DNA from: Polycladomyces abyssicola
Lineage (GTDB): Bacteria; Bacillota; Bacilli; Thermoactinomycetales; JIR-001
Assembly: GCF_018326425.1 (NCBI RefSeq)
Contig: NZ_AP024601.1
Coordinates: 2,778,001 to 2,842,000 of the forward strand
Length of the DNA stretch: 64,000 bases
Reading direction: 5' to 3'
Shown here: piece after piece, positions 10,117-58,331 of the stretch
How positions within the stretch are numbered: position 1 is the stretch's first letter
How the letters are laid out: the number at the start of each line of letters is the position of its first letter
Notes under the pieces: generated by a model
Told to the model about the DNA's origin: nothing
Seen by the model: only the letters and a program-made list of their open reading frames with translations
Databases searched by the model: none
Program-made: the position numbers and the translations under genes

Positions 10117-11028
10117 TCACGTTTTCATTTTGTCAGCAATGGTCGAATCGTTTGATTTCGCCTCTTTTTTCGCGGTCAAAAACATGGAACACAGCAGTAT
10201 GACCGCACCCAACCATCCGCTGAAGGACAGCCGTTCTCCCAGCAGCGTGATGGCCAACAGCGTAGCGGTCAACGGCTCCGCCAATGACCAAATGGATGCT
10301 GATGTTGCTGTAACGTAACGCATACCGTGGATAAACAGCACATAAGCCATGGCCGTCGGGACCCAGCCCAGATAAACGAGCAGCAACCATCCCTGCCAAG
10401 GAAGCACCGGCCAACTGAGCACCGGAATCGACAGGATTGCGCCGATCGAAAAAGCTACTCCGATCACCAACAACGGAGGTACGTCCCCAACCAATCGCTT
10501 GCTGATCAACGTATAGCCACCGTAACAGGCCGCTGCCGCCAATGCCAGCAGGTTACCCTGCCACAGGCGCGGTTCGGTCAATCCCTGCAGGCTGTGGAGC
10601 CCGATCAACATGCTCGTGCCGATCACGCCCAATACCAATGCCCAACCGGTGGTTGAGGTCCAACGCTCCTTGAGCCACCAACTCGCCACCACACTGACCA
10701 TCAGTGGTGCCGTGCAAACGGTGAGCAGGGTAGCCGTCGACACCATGGTCTGGCCCACCGCGGAAAAATAGCACGCCTGATACCCTGCAACCCCCACTCC
10801 GAACAACACCAACCAAAGCCAGGAACGACTTGTGAGCCTTCCGATACTCCCCGTGCGGACGCTCTCCTGCCATGTCGCTGCCAATAACACCGGTGCGCTG
10901 AACAGTAAACGAAACGCCCCGATCGTCAACGGATCTGTTCCATAATTTGTCGTCAGCACTTTGGCTGTCATTCCAGCCGTCCCCCATAATACGGCCGCTG
11001 CTACTACTCCCCACATACCAATTCTCAT
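10117..11028 (-). CDS. EamA (DMT superfamily) transporter
   Basis: A 303-residue inner-membrane protein with ten predicted hydrophobic helices arranged as two EamA halves. The first begins VVAAAVLWGTAGMTAKVL; the second contains LLALAAAACYGGYTLISKRL and ends with SLAEPLTATLLAITLLGERL, the usual S/A-x-x-E-P motif. The family exports amino acids, metabolites or drugs; the substrate cannot be told from sequence. The ATG at 11028 has GGGAGGGG six bases upstream, so the 15 codons before it in the open frame are not used. It is monocistronic with its own terminator. Confidence 0.88.
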   Translation of the reverse strand: MRIGMWGVVAAAVLWGTAGMTAKVLTTNYGTDPLTIGAFRLLFSAPVLLAATWQESVRTGSIGRLTSRSWLWLVLFGVGVAGYQACYFSAVGQTMVSTATLLTVCTAPLMVSVVASWWLKERWTSTTGWALVLGVIGTSMLIGLHSLQGLTEPRLWQGNLLALAAAACYGGYTLISKRLVGDVPPLLVIGVAFSIGAILSIPVLSWPVLPWQGWLLLVYLGWVPTAMAYVLFIHGMRYVTATSASIWSLAEPLTATLLAITLLGERLSFSGWLGAVILLCSMFLTAKKEAKSNDSTIADKMKT

Positions 11029-11814
11029 TCCGGACCCCTCCCGATTCAGTTTGTTCACCGTCGGGCGGGTCAACTTGCGCTCCCGCCCGTGTCAGGAAAC
11101 GGGAACGCGACGGGGAGGGGGCAACACACCCTTCCATGCCATGTTCGTTCCTCCTCTCAATTGGTAACTAGGACGCGCCTAATAGATCAATGGTTCAACG
11201 GCTATACTCTGGGGAACCTTCTTTCCCGAATCGTCCCCAGTGGTGAAGTCACGCTTTTGGGAAAGGGTTCCCTCCATCTCATCCCTTGTCAGACACGCCC
11301 TCATCTGCCAGACAGGCTGCTTACCGCAGACACCGCTTCAGCATTTGCGTCCAACTTTCCGTCAAATAGGGGCAATCGCCAATTCGACCCATTCCGCCCG
11401 ATCGGGAGAGGCACTGAATACCAATCATTGTATTTGACGATACCAACCGGTACCCCCAACTCCTTGATCCGACACACGCGTTCGGGGACGCCCCACAACC
11501 TGGCCGGCTTCCAACACGGCATACAGCGGTTGGGAGACTTGCACCACGCCTCCCCTATTCGGTATACGTTATCGATACACTCGTTATGTTCATTCAAACC
11601 GGTGGCGGTAAAAAACGCCCCGTAGTAATTCCAATAACATCAGTTCCCGTCACCACTCGGCATCATAATCCGCCGGCTCCGATTTCCTGTCTCCGCGTCT
11701 GGTTAAAGCGAAGCGTACTTTGCCCGCATTCCGTGCTCCACGGTTCGGAGCGGCCAGACCAGCTTCCTTGCTGGGCGCAGGTGGAGCGATCCGGAAAGGG
11801 AACAGACCACACCC
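11029..11814. other. 785-base gap between the EamA gene and mtnA
   Basis: No intact gene is supported here. It contains one copy of a dispersed hairpin repeat (11211-11299). On the minus strand an open stretch at about 11301-11597 translates to a protein-like run (VGIVKYNDWYSVPLPIGRNG) without a convincing ribosome site or family match, which may be a decayed gene. Near 11130-11160 AGGAGG followed by ATGGCATGGA on the minus strand would start only a short frame. Confidence 0.5.
11211..11299 (-). repeat. dispersed hairpin repeat, copy 1
   Basis: On the minus strand it reads GTGTCTGACAAGG, then GGGAACCCTTTCCC, a loop with TTCACCAC and GGGGACGA, then GGGAAAGAAGGTTCC. The arms pair over about 13 bases. 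A second copy with the same blocks in the same order lies at 39182-39265 on the plus strand. No coding frame is attached. The head GTGTCTGACAA resembles ends of some insertion sequences, so a miniature or decayed element is likely (inference). Confidence 0.7.
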
Positions 11815-21069: not shown

Positions 21070-21250
21070 TGACAATTCCTCCTTTTCCATGTCTTACGAT
21101 TCAAATAATAGCACACCCGCATTTTGGGGGCATCAGATATACATTAAGAATTTTTGAGGATTCAACCTCACTCGATCCGGAGGACTTTTCAAAGGTTCTT
21201 ACAGAATTCAGGCCACCCTTCTCTCACATTAGCAAATGACCAGACACACC

Positions 21251-22024
21251 CTATCCGATCAGTCCCTGTGCATGCCGTTCGATGAATCGTTTGATCGTGT
21301 CCGCAGCCCGTTCGACACTGGCCAACTCCGCCGCCTCAAAACGGAAAAACCCCTTTTTCTCGTCCAGATCCAGTTGATCGGCGAGCATACCGATCAAGCC
21401 GTGCGTCTTCTTATCCAGCTCAAAGTGCCCTTCGATCCGCTCTTGCGTGCGAGCCGGTGAGTATGAAAACACCACTTCATCAAATTGACCCCGCATCCAG
21501 TCGGTCGGTTGAAACTGGATGAATTGCACGCCGCCGTTCCTGATGCCGGTGTATCCCTCTGAGATGGGGATGAAGCCCAATCGCTGAAACCCTTCCAACA
21601 AGTTGCGCAACAACCCTTGCGGTCGGACGACGACCGCATCCCGGTCCTTGGCATCGACACCTGCCACTATCGCCAGATTGCTGCGAAAATCATAACGCGT
21701 ACGTACCAAGGACACCGGCAAATACGCGGGACATACGAACGAGAAGGAAAATTCCTGTACCTCTCCGGAATGGATGGTAAAAGCATCCATTGTCACAGGG
21801 ATTGTGGATACTGTATCATCTACATATATCGTTTGATCACCGCGTTGAAACGCTGAAGTCACATGAAATTCGACCGTCAATTTTTCAATTTTCTGTTCAA
21901 CGTTCCCACCTGTCAGCACCAACTTGCCGTTGACGGGTTGCCCCATGGTGACGGTGTCATCATCAAGGATCAGATCAATCTTGGCAGCGCCCACTCCCAA
22001 TGAAGCAAGCAAGGTTTTGAACAT
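21251..22024 (-). CDS. Spo0M-type protein, paralogue
   Basis: A 257-residue paralogue of the preceding gene, starting MFKTLLASLGVGAAKIDLIL. It shares the GNVEQ-I-E-x-L motif, the PFSFVCP/FSFVCP segment, VDAKDRD, and QFxPTDWxxGQxDE near the C-terminal third. The sequences have diverged throughout, so the duplication is not recent. ATG at 22024 has GGAGG nine bases upstream. About 180 bases separate the two genes, enough for a separate promoter. Confidence 0.88.
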   Translation of the reverse strand: MFKTLLASLGVGAAKIDLILDDDTVTMGQPVNGKLVLTGGNVEQKIEKLTVEFHVTSAFQRGDQTIYVDDTVSTIPVTMDAFTIHSGEVQEFSFSFVCPAYLPVSLVRTRYDFRSNLAIVAGVDAKDRDAVVVRPQGLLRNLLEGFQRLGFIPISEGYTGIRNGGVQFIQFQPTDWMRGQFDEVVFSYSPARTQERIEGHFELDKKTHGLIGMLADQLDLDEKKGFFRFEAAELASVERAADTIKRFIERHAQGLIG

Positions 22025-37736: not shown

Positions 37737-37880
37737 CCGTTTTTGCCGAACCGCATACAACAGGACCCGAATCTTGTAATGGATTTGATTTCTGCGCTTT
37801 CCGGTTCTTCGCTCGGCCGGGCTCGGTCAGTCGCTCGCCTGGGAAAAAATCGCCTCTTTACGGAATGACCATACGCACCC

Positions 37881-37907
37881 TAGTGTGCAACCGAAAATTG
37901 CACACTA
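37881..37907. promoter_or_regulatory. palindromic upstream activator site
   Basis: TAGTGTGCAA and TTGCACACTA are perfect 10-base inverted arms with a 7-base spacer, about 58 bases upstream of the -24/-12 element. One arm recurs in the activator gene's own promoter at 34954. The position fits an enhancer for the adjacent sigma-54 activator. Confidence 0.75.
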
Positions 37908-38533: not shown

Positions 38534-38881
38534 TTGACCCTGGAGGAAATCATCTTTCATATCGTCCTTCACGGCGGCAATGCTCGCGGAGAAGCGTACG
38601 AAGCACTGGATGCAGCTGAAAACTTAGATTTTGCCACTGCGGAGCACCACCTGGAAAAAGCGGAAGAAGAGTTGGCCGCCGGTCACCGGTATCAAACGGA
38701 ACTGGTACAAACAAACTCCGACAACCCCCATGACACCGCCGCCCCATTTCTCGTCATCCATGCACAGGACCACTTGATGACCGCCATGGCGGAATTGAAC
38801 CTGATCAAGCGGTTGGTGAACAACTATCGAGTGATCGCGGACCTTAAAACGCGAGTAGAAAAATTGGAACAAGCGGAGTGA
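38534..38881 (+). CDS. PTS EIIA component, lactose/cellobiose family
   Basis: A 115-residue all-helical EIIA. LEEIIFHIVLHGGNARGEAY is the characteristic opening and the active histidine is H76 in LVIHAQDHLM. It passes phosphate from HPr to EIIB. The TTG at 38534 has AGGAG eight bases upstream; the GTG at 38525 overlaps that site. Six bases separate it from the HPr gene, so they are certainly cotranscribed. No EIIC gene lies in the cluster. Confidence 0.9.
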   Translation: MTLEEIIFHIVLHGGNARGEAYEALDAAENLDFATAEHHLEKAEEELAAGHRYQTELVQTNSDNPHDTAAPFLVIHAQDHLMTAMAELNLIKRLVNNYRVIADLKTRVEKLEQAE

Positions 38882-38887
38882 TGGCAC

Positions 38888-39148
38888 ATGACGGAAAAAA
38901 CCCTGACCATTCAACATCCCAGTGGTTTGCACGCTCGTCCGGCTTCATTGCTGGTGCAAGAAGCGAGCAAATTCCAAAGCAAAATCACCCTGGTTAAAGC
39001 CGGCAAAGAAGTAGATGCCAAAAGCTTGCTCGGCGTGATGTCCTTGGCAGTCAAACAAGGTGACGAAATCACGGTTCGTGCCGAAGGAGCGGATGCCGAA
39101 CAAGCTGTGTCCGCGCTGGTCGAGCGTCTGGAAAACTTGAGCGAATAA
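38888..39148 (+). CDS. ptsH: phosphocarrier protein HPr
   Basis: An 86-residue HPr with the active-site histidine H15 in HPSGLHARPAS and the regulatory serine S46 in AKSLLGVMSLAV, the site used by HPr kinase in Firmicutes. It transfers phosphate from EI to EIIA proteins and PRDs and, as HPr-Ser-P, acts in catabolite repression. ATG follows GGAGTGATGGCAC, with the ribosome site overlapping the EIIA stop. It sits downstream of a sigma-54-controlled EIIB-EIIA pair, an unusual position if it is the only general HPr. Confidence 0.94.
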   Translation: MTEKTLTIQHPSGLHARPASLLVQEASKFQSKITLVKAGKEVDAKSLLGVMSLAVKQGDEITVRAEGADAEQAVSALVERLENLSE

Positions 39149-39181
39149 CAAACCGATGGAAGGGAAATCATCCCCAGTTCT

Positions 39182-39265
39182 AGGGTGTGTCTGACAAGTG
39201 GTAGGGAACCCTTTCCCCGAGAGCCTTCACCACGTGGGGGACGAGCCGGGGAAAGGGTTTCCAGA
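39182..39265 (+). repeat. dispersed hairpin repeat, copy 2
   Basis: GTGTCTGACAAG, then GGAACCCTTTCCCC pairing with GGGGAAAGGGTTTCC, loop with TTCACCAC and GGGGACGA. The same blocks occur at 11211-11299 in the opposite orientation. It lies in the 215-base gap between the HPr and EI genes, where such a stem could affect read-through. Confidence 0.72.
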
Positions 39266-39363
39266 TCGTCTCATTGATTCATTGATTTCCCTGACATGTC
39301 CTAAACTGCGAAACCGCCTTCATCTGAGCAAAAACGGGATTGTCGATGAAAAGAGGGATTGAC

Positions 39364-41073
39364 ATGCAAACCGACCAACTGTTGAAAGGCATCGGTGCGG
39401 CTCCTGGTTTGGCGATCGGTCGTGCCGTGTGGTGGCGTAAGGAGCGACCTGAGTTTACCATTCATACAGTCGAAGATCCGGAACGTGAAGTGGCACGTTT
39501 GAAGCAAGCAATCGAGCAGGCTCAAGAGCAAATCAGCCGTTTGCGGGAAACCGCAGCCGAACGGATGGGCGAAAGTGAAGCGGCCGTTTTTGACGCTCAC
39601 TTGGCATTTTTGAGCGACCCTGCCTACACCGGGGAGATGGAACGCCGCATCCGCGACGAAGCGAAAAACGCCGAAGCGATTTGTGCCGCCGTCACACAGG
39701 AAATGAGCGACATGTTGGCGGCTCTGCCGGACGAATACATGCAGGCTCGGGCAGATGACATCCGTGATGTAGGCGACCGTTTGCTGTTGATTCTCACGGG
39801 ACGTCAGCCGTTCGACCCATCGCTGTTGGAACCCGGTTCCGTAGTCGTCGCTGAGGAGCTGACCCCGTCGGATACCGCGCAATTCCCGCAAGGCATCGCC
39901 GGTATGATCACCGCGCGCGGGAGCAAAACGGCGCACGCCGCCATCATGGCACGCACACTGGGAATTCCGGCCGTCTTGGGACTCGGAAAAGCGCTTGATC
40001 AGATCCAGGACGGCGACACACTGATTCTGGACGGAACGACGGGTGACGTAACCCGCAATCCTAACCCGCAGGCCGAACAGGCGGCACGGGAAGAAATGCG
40101 CCGGCAACGGGAGCGGCGTGAACGGGCGTTGGCGGCGGCCAAAGAAGATGCCCGCACGGCAGACGGCAAACGGGTTCAGGTGTTTGCCAACATCGGCAGC
40201 CTGAATGATATCGAACTGGCTCTGCAAAGCGGGGCGGAAGGGGTTGGATTGTTCCGAACCGAGTTTCTCTACTTGGAAAATGATCATTGGCCGACGGAAG
40301 AAGAGCAGTACGAAGCCTATCGCCGGGTCCTGGAAGCGTTCAATCCGAACCCGGTCATCATTCGTACCCTGGATATCGGGGGAGACAAAGATCTGCCGTA
40401 CGCGGAACTGCCTAAGGAAGAAAACCCGTTCCTCGGCCATCGCGCGATCCGTTTCTGTTTCTCCCATCCGGAGATTTTCAAAACGCAATTGCGTGCCCTG
40501 CTCCGAGCCAGTGTTCACGGAACCTTGTGGATCATGTTCCCGATGATCGAGAACGTATCGGAAATCCGTCAGGCCAAAGAACTGCTGGCTGAATGCCGGG
40601 CAGAGCTGGTGAAAGAAGGCGTTCAAGTCGCAGAAAAGATTCCTGTCGGCATCATGATCGAAGTACCGGCCGCAGCGGTAACAGCCGATTTGCTCGCACC
40701 GGAAGTTGATTTCATGAGCATCGGCACCAACGACCTGACCCAATACACGCTGGCCGCCGACCGCGGAAACGAACAAGTGGCTCATCTCTACGACGCGGCC
40801 CATCCTGCGGTGCTCCGTTTGGTTCGTCAAACCTGCCTCGCCGGGAAAAAAGCAGGTATCCCCGTGGGCATGTGCGGTGAACTGGCCGGTGACGCGAACA
40901 TGACGGAGATCCTCGTCGGGCTGGGGCTGGACGAGCTGTCCATGAGCGCCGGCGCCATTCCGGAAGTGAAGGAACGGATCAGAAGCGTACAAACCAACGC
41001 AGCCGAAGCCAAATCTGAACGGGCTCTCGCTCAATCCGATCCTGACGCGGTACGCCGTATCGCACAAGAGTAA
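39364..41073 (+). CDS. ptsI: PTS enzyme I
   Basis: A 569-residue phosphoenolpyruvate-protein phosphotransferase. The phosphohistidine is H191 in GSKTAHAAIMAR (most EI have GGRTSHSAIMAR). The PEP-binding barrel shows GVGLFRTEFLY, RTLDIGGDKDLPY and the signature FMSIGTNDLTQYTLAADRGN, with the catalytic Cys in VGMCGELAGD. It starts PTS phosphorylation by taking phosphate from PEP. ATG at 39364 has AGAGGG six bases upstream and gives normal length. A hairpin repeat separates it from the HPr gene; a strong terminator follows. Confidence 0.95.
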   Translation: MQTDQLLKGIGAAPGLAIGRAVWWRKERPEFTIHTVEDPEREVARLKQAIEQAQEQISRLRETAAERMGESEAAVFDAHLAFLSDPAYTGEMERRIRDEAKNAEAICAAVTQEMSDMLAALPDEYMQARADDIRDVGDRLLLILTGRQPFDPSLLEPGSVVVAEELTPSDTAQFPQGIAGMITARGSKTAHAAIMARTLGIPAVLGLGKALDQIQDGDTLILDGTTGDVTRNPNPQAEQAAREEMRRQRERRERALAAAKEDARTADGKRVQVFANIGSLNDIELALQSGAEGVGLFRTEFLYLENDHWPTEEEQYEAYRRVLEAFNPNPVIIRTLDIGGDKDLPYAELPKEENPFLGHRAIRFCFSHPEIFKTQLRALLRASVHGTLWIMFPMIENVSEIRQAKELLAECRAELVKEGVQVAEKIPVGIMIEVPAAAVTADLLAPEVDFMSIGTNDLTQYTLAADRGNEQVAHLYDAAHPAVLRLVRQTCLAGKKAGIPVGMCGELAGDANMTEILVGLGLDELSMSAGAIPEVKERIRSVQTNAAEAKSERALAQSDPDAVRRIAQE

Positions 41074-57904: not shown

Positions 57905-58025
57905 AACTCTCATCTCCCAGAGATACCCTCTGCAGGAATTGGCACCACATTTGAAAGGCTATCCCTTTCAAATAGGTTGCCGGGCTTCATCGGGCCAGTC
58001 CCTCCGCCGCTCTGGATAAGAGTTC
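57905..58025 (-). ncRNA. SAM-I (S-box) riboswitch
   Basis: On the minus strand the conserved core is clear: CTCTTATCCAGAGCGGCGGA, then GGGACTGGCCCGATGAAGCC, CGGCAACC, a P3 stem of TTTGAAAGG/CCTTTCAAA, GGTGCCAATTCCTGCAG and the closing GAGATGAGAG. SAM binding ends transcription of metH-yitJ. The sequence is a standard aptamer with nothing missing that I can see. Confidence 0.97.
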
Positions 58026-58110: not shown

Positions 58111-58331
58111 TGATTTCAGGTCTTTCCCCTCACGAAATGACTCCAGACACACCCTCGTCCTGGTTCCTGGTTCTCTTCAAACATAGTATATGCTTTTGCG
58201 TGAAAACATTTCTCCGTGTTTGACCGACCGGACCGCCCGTTTTACACCTCACGTGCGTTTTTTTGTACGCTCCTCGCTCCCGTTTCAGGTCATGCACTGC
58301 CGGAGTAACGGACAACCGAATCCGATACCGT

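Follow-up and report, generated by a model that had tools for sequence, protein, structure and literature searches.

The hairpin between ptsH and ptsI raises the question of what kind of sequence could lie inside this operon and recur, in opposite orientation, elsewhere in the window (the whole stretch of 64,000 nucleotides analysed here): a regulatory RNA, a signal belonging to the operon itself, or a copy of a mobile element. Our analyses suggest that such hairpins are very probably MITEs with IS5-type ends, which would have been moved in trans by a transposase of that type and which now appear stranded and mostly decaying.

The preliminary description had reported a set of blocks common to the two copies, and all of these are present, in the same order and in opposite orientation. 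Its borders were too narrow: the span 39182-39265 takes in the left end and the core of one copy, but this element extends to 39301, and the second copy, placed at 11211-11299, extends to 11171. The placement of one copy between the genes for HPr and enzyme I holds, as Pfam finds both genes around 39183-39301, and for ptsI we prefer the start codon ATG 39364 because the ATG at 39346 is absent from the congeners G001 and G002. Among named records, Marinithermofilum abyssi comes closest by enzyme I, at 75%. The features concerned are:

38888-39148, plus strand: ptsH (HPr, PF00381), found by Pfam
39181-39182, no strand: TA, left flank of the ptsH-ptsI copy, presumed target duplication
39183-39301, plus strand: putative family-1 MITE between ptsH and ptsI, 119 bp
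39204-39218, plus strand: left arm of its core stem, GGGAACCCTTTCCCC
39248-39262, plus strand: right arm of its core stem, GGGGAAAGGGTTTCC
39302-39303, no strand: TA, right flank of the ptsH-ptsI copy
39364-41073, plus strand: ptsI (enzyme I), found by Pfam
11171-11300, minus strand: putative family-1 MITE, second copy (the 11 kb copy), 130 bp

Each window copy has the form of an imperfect palindrome with ends GGGYGTGTCTGACAA, and its terminal inverted repeats (GGGTGTGTC / GACATGTCC and GGGCGTGTC / GGCGCGTCC) are base-paired with each other in the folding predictions, while the core stem encloses a region with the consensus GAGTGACTTCACCACGTGGGGAACGAGTC. An alignment of the two copies over their full length shows 85 identities among 117 aligned bases and 15 columns with gaps. 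The predicted structure of each copy is for the most part a single long hairpin, which in the ptsH-ptsI copy runs nearly from end to end (-52.8 kcal/mol for 39180-39306). A strong stem between two co-directional genes could also act as an intrinsic terminator or as a processing site between ptsH and ptsI. However, the stem is without a T run of the terminator type, neither a terminator (shuffles gave 1.6 on average) nor a sigma-70 promoter was found in 38600-39700, and the same element lies elsewhere, for example before the gene of an EamA transporter; we consider this explanation improbable. Within the window, no tRNA genes were found, and the only match at the Rfam gathering score was a SAM riboswitch elsewhere.

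A BLAST search with one copy against its own genome returned eight matches (the query, its reverse strand and six other places) with E-values of 2.6e-10 to 8.2e-4, the 11 kb copy among them at 3.6e-5. The covariance model built from seven own-genome copies (R1) gave eight matches at E <= 1e-10 in this 3.2-Mb genome, seven of them the training copies, and 21 at E <= 1, the weaker of which include elements that differ in their interior and antisense matches to these palindromes. Copies outside the training set were found by R1 in two congeners (best E 4e-25), so that the further copies anticipated in the preliminary description exist both in this genome and in its congeners. At E <= 0.001, nine of 61 genomes were positive: all three of the genus (10, 11 and 11 matches, one of them antisense), six of 39 in the same order, where matches were weak (best E 7e-6), and none of 19 in the same class. 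The same-order matches comprised one each in G007, G010, G013, G030 and G033 and eight in G020, and among these six genomes MITE ends were recognized by eye in G010 (L096) and G030 (L095) only. The G020 repeats (L094, L101, L104, L107, L110, L113) are hairpins of another genus, partly clustered, with a core that is somewhat family-1-like (e.g., CCCCTGCGAGTGCCTTTGCCATCGCAACGAAACGAGCAGGGG) and, by eye, without MITE ends. The three own-genome copies with both ends measure 119, 130 and 134 bp. By itself, the shared word GTGTCTGACAAG is not significant in the window (4 sites versus 3.85 expected, at 2 mismatches).

With up to 3 mismatches allowed, the own genome has 143 sites for the end pattern AGGGYGTGTCTGRYAAA, versus 55 for the reversed pattern. 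A T precedes 18 of the first 30 of these ends (p 5e-5 against 25%), with TA at 16 and CT at 13; one element contributes both of its ends to these 30. The ptsH-ptsI copy, the copy at 955528 and three insertion sequence (IS) copies are flanked by TA on either side. Among 36 candidate pairs, a set that includes chance pairs, overlaps and decayed copies, six have TA at both flanks. The preliminary description had proposed to look for target duplications; presumed ones are the two TA flanks of the ptsH-ptsI copy, and the 11 kb copy has TA on one side (11169-11170) and a decayed GA on the opposite side. TA rather than CTAG is the common part of the target, because the flanks of the IS copy in G010 read ACT-TA and TA-ATT. 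No base-exact empty site was found in the congeners, and reading seven gaps between blocks syntenic to the window gave no clean insertion with these ends; one of the seven gaps (58126-58155) holds decayed copies in all three species. The site of another own-genome copy (L027) is rearranged in both congeners, and the IS site of G002 is not cleanly alignable to G001. In their general features the elements are short (below ~300 bp), non-coding and dispersed in multiple copies, with terminal inverted repeats and with ends common to an autonomous transposon.

This transposon is a 951-bp IS5-family IS in the congener G002 (L136, 1034-1984), and with its inverted ends GGGCGTGTCTGGTAAT it is a full-length element with matching ends, of the sort that the preliminary description had proposed to look for. 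These ends are inverted at 20 of 22 aligned bases and are bordered by CTAG on both sides, giving TA flanks, and the element has open frames at 1106-1501 and 1510-1968, in different frames. Both exceed the cut-off of 110 for the IS5 transposase model NF033580 (131.8 and 163.8 bits), and the second also exceeds the cut-off of 23 for PF01609 (81.7). Family-1 and IS ends differ in few bases (GACAA versus GGTAA), and IS copies with such ends and TA flanks were also recovered from G010 (L146) and G033 (L145, truncated at a contig boundary). L136 resembles the IS427 group of the IS5 family, which is described as having inverted ends of 13-21 bp, a duplication that is mostly of 2 bp and, for some members, a pair of ORFs with a frameshift motif (PMC3281130), in its short inverted ends, TA flanks and two ORFs. 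It differs from that group in length (951 bp versus the 832-865 bp listed for IS427 in the same source), and the window elements, unlike these IS, contain no transposase.

To what extent do such ends accompany this transposase? Among the eight loci of its closest relatives (63-100% identity), five carry an end at up to 2 mismatches (L143, L145, L146, L158 and L165, with the right end only in L158 and L165) and three do not (L144, L157, L164), while among 22 fetched loci of relatives at up to 51% identity none has an end at that threshold. Similar ends were seen on distant relatives at 3 mismatches (L153, 42% identity) and at 4 mismatches (L147 and L166, 51%). The link between end and transposase is therefore not exclusive, because a relative at 42% has a similar end and three close ones have none. 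At E <= 1e-5 the transposase ORF has matches in 22 of 61 genomes and none in the own genome, and G001 has one transposase fragment at a contig end. The own-genome search for a partner consisted of PF01609 and one transposase ORF, and in the loci around its two PF01609 matches (1433047 and 1660314) no such end was recovered at up to 4 mismatches. The copies look stranded because no partner was detected in the genome to which the window belongs.

The same ends delimit a larger group. The first 30 of the 143 end sites include a second family of ~235 bp and shorter end pairs, down to 64 bp. The interior of family 2 partly resembles the family-1 core, both by eye and in weak R1 matches (L029 at E 1.3e-4; L036, L037 and L039 at 0.17 to 0.54). 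With a family-2 copy as query, we obtained 44, 41 and 40 scored matches in the three congeneric genomes, counts bounded by the 40 candidates scored per genome out of 82, 116 and 104 first-look candidates and including some matches that are pieces of one copy. Two members of this group lie in the window:

37782-37885, plus strand (orientation of L049): putative truncated family-2 MITE with one inverted end kept, CCCTA at 37878-37882
58126-58155, no strand: putative remnant that retains one end of such an element

G002 has a 235-bp match at the place syntenic to 37782-37885. At the 58126-58155 site, the copy of G001 is longer and that of G002 measures 67 bp. The first of these pieces lies between the gene for a regulator (sigma-54 and EIIA-man domains) and those for PTS IIB/IIA/HPr, and the second lies close to the SAM riboswitch (57907-58022, minus strand). 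A single end-like site was also noted at 21236-21252 of the window (minus strand; 2 mismatches, preceded by T and so giving TA). MITEs of both families, one of each, lie directly next to each other at the L027 locus (own 1202919), where one seems to have inserted into an end of its neighbour. Palindromic, dispersed repeats with a larger family of 40-44 scored matches per genome would also be compatible with REP/BIME repeats moved by a RAYT (Y1 transposase). However, family 1, at 119-134 bp, has inverted ends and TA flanks, and a DDE element with matching ends exists, which leaves REP/BIME repeats a most improbable explanation and favors MITEs with IS5-type ends.

How old, then, are these MITE insertions? 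We based the orthology count on 29 of the 32 R1 matches in the genus (10, 11 and 11), leaving out the own-genome match at 102533 (family-2-like), the antisense match on G002 C37 and the match at G002 C38:2158 (E above 1e-5). By their flanking DNA, 21 of the 29 family-1 matches fall in nine orthologous groups, and seven of nine own-genome copies examined are common to at least one congener at the same place. All three species have the copies ptsH-ptsI, 11 kb and 1882157, and positions shared in this way date many insertions to before these species diverged. Outside the genus, the start of ptsI lies within ~30 bp of the ptsH stop in 11 measured loci of 12 from Thermoactinomycetaceae, representing nine named genera; in the remaining twelfth locus (L078) HPr was not found. 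Eight other loci have spacers of ~90 and 115 bp (the two from Alicyclobacillus), ~1 kb (L086, L087) or little, and R1 found nothing convincing on these 20 ptsH-ptsI loci (best E 0.1). The element appears to have entered the ptsH-ptsI spacer in the lineage of this genus, because the spacer is near-absent in other genera and R1 was negative there.

In the sequence of events that we propose, gene-less elements with terminal inverted repeats (TA followed by GGGYGTGTCTGRYAA) like those of an IS5-family (DDE, IS427-like) IS would have been moved in trans by an IS427-like transposase, as the shared ends suggest, with TA (often CTAG) as the target, at a time before the three species of the genus diverged. 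Loss of the transposase from the own genome would then have left the copies stranded and most of them presumably decaying neutrally.

Two loci showed further features next to a family-1 copy. A copy present in two species (L003, own 2152753-2152840, minus strand; L100 in G001) lies shortly before a start codon, and the gene that follows reads like glyQ by eye. A T-box suspected by eye in L003 was unsupported, as nothing reached the Rfam gathering score in L003 or L100. Just downstream of the 11 kb copy, a 16-codon ORF MAWKGVLPPPRRVPVS at 11092-11142 (minus strand), with a good ribosome site by eye, lies upstream of the EamA-family transporter gene (10117-11028, minus strand). The pattern M-x-x-KGVLPPP, with one mismatch allowed, was found in six of 61 genomes, once each and with no mismatch, and gave no control matches; carriers of MALKGVLPPP... 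are the three genomes of the genus and G007, G011 and G014, from two families of the order. In all six, GGGCGGGAG follows the ORF and CGGGAGGGG or CGGGAGGAG stands further on, and an intervening C-rich stretch could pair with either, the last G-rich segment being the presumed ribosome site of the transporter. EamA is also encoded by the next long ORF in G007, as in the own genome; for G011 and G014, choosing the longest ORF led to a different frame. The 16-codon ORF resembles a leader peptide of a translation attenuator, with PPP as the presumable stalling site. No match at the Rfam gathering score was found in L236 (own) or L234 (G007), and a literature search on EamA with leader peptide and attenuation found none.

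We then compared sequence constraint within and around the copies. Across 15 orthologous comparisons the cores were 71% identical (636/896) and the left ends 76%, with 75% for the 60 bp past the model match (mostly the right end), 82% for the 120 bp upstream and 88% for the partly coding 61-140 bp downstream. Fourfold sites of four genes were 75.2% (G001) and 81.6% (G002) identical to those of the own genome. Given these core and fourfold identities, most copies change at about the rate of fourfold sites or more quickly, and the preliminary view of a non-coding element rather than a conserved function is upheld for them, although it may fail for the ptsH-ptsI copy.

The partial covariation of the arms that had been described before can also be read only with reservation. 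In 27 copies, changes on both sides were seen on nine of 20 pairs and in 14 cells, versus a shuffle mean of 4.2 cells, but with partners slid by one column seven and eight pairs (7 and 9 cells) were still changed on both sides; since the alignment was fitted to the structure, we count this covariation as weak evidence. A structured RNA family (riboswitch-like or small RNA) instead of a mobile element would account for a hairpin common to many copies, for covariation above shuffles and for the better folding of six of seven own-genome copies than of their shuffles (z <= -2.6; the L003 copy does not, at z -0.9). However, neither window copy has an Rfam match at the gathering score, orthologous cores are less conserved (71%) than their flanks (82% and 88%), slid controls reach nearly equal covariation, the inverted ends match an IS, and the neighbouring genes differ (ptsHI; EamA transporter). 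An RNA family is thus a very unlikely origin for these hairpins.

Could the ptsH-ptsI MITE nevertheless have acquired a role? Among the three species its stem varies in 2/28 columns, its loop in 13/29 and its left end in 4/21 (Fisher p 0.006), and the stem also varies less than fourfold sites (2/28 versus 310/982, or 32%; p 0.0026), in a test that comprises three loci, with p values uncorrected for their number, three species and few sites on an alignment fitted to the model. Outer stem pairs are kept at 14, 14 and 13 of 14 in the three species, and the predicted folds of the orthologues are strong (-52.8, -63.4 and -70.8 kcal/mol). The held stem and varying loop would fit a co-option in which the stem, transcribed with the pts operon, shields the mRNA or slows it, and sets the ratio of HPr to enzyme I. 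However, the 1882157 copy, which is without a known role, shows the same trend (stem 6/28, p 0.006), so that it is perhaps not special to pts, and in the 11 kb copy the trend is opposite (stem 11/25 versus 14/54 elsewhere in that copy). We therefore regard co-option as a tentative and rather doubtful proposal, one that would add to the MITE origin and not replace it. If it applies, a stranded MITE that entered the ptsH-ptsI spacer in the genus ancestor may have been domesticated, its stem being selected as an intercistronic hairpin while sister copies decay.

Several known systems offer comparisons. MITEPsy1 of Pseudomonas syringae is a 100-nt element whose ends resemble those of the IS5-family ISPsy2, with CTAG or YTAA as target (PMC3189936). 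It is described as active, with a 4-nt duplication and identical ends in six copies, whereas the window copies are old and divergent and no partner was detected in their own genome; the authors on MITEPsy1 mark the family as 'IS5?' and mention a potentially contradicting result on the partner (PMC3189936). RUP of Streptococcus pneumoniae and Correia/NEMIS of Neisseria are short hairpin MITEs with terminal TA (PMC2229807, PMC10969869), and RUP also shares its ends with an IS, but its partner is IS630-type (PMC2229807) and the one considered here belongs to the IS5 family. Correia stems in mRNAs are reported to be cut by RNase III (PMC10969869), which is a model, by analogy, for what the pts stem might do. 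The window hairpins are of a kind already known (MITEs); their family itself appears to be new, with no record of it in titles and abstracts on Polycladomyces transposases, on Thermoactinomycetaceae MITEs, on MITEs with IS427 or on MITEs more broadly, and nothing related, as judged by abstract, in the literature on a MITE with ptsH and ptsI.

The above analyses provide a worked case of MITE families that seemingly outlived their transposase, whereas an IS with matching ends persists in a congener, for hairpins that would otherwise be easily annotated as regulatory RNAs. Within this genus, the ptsH-ptsI copy is a directly testable case of possible co-option.
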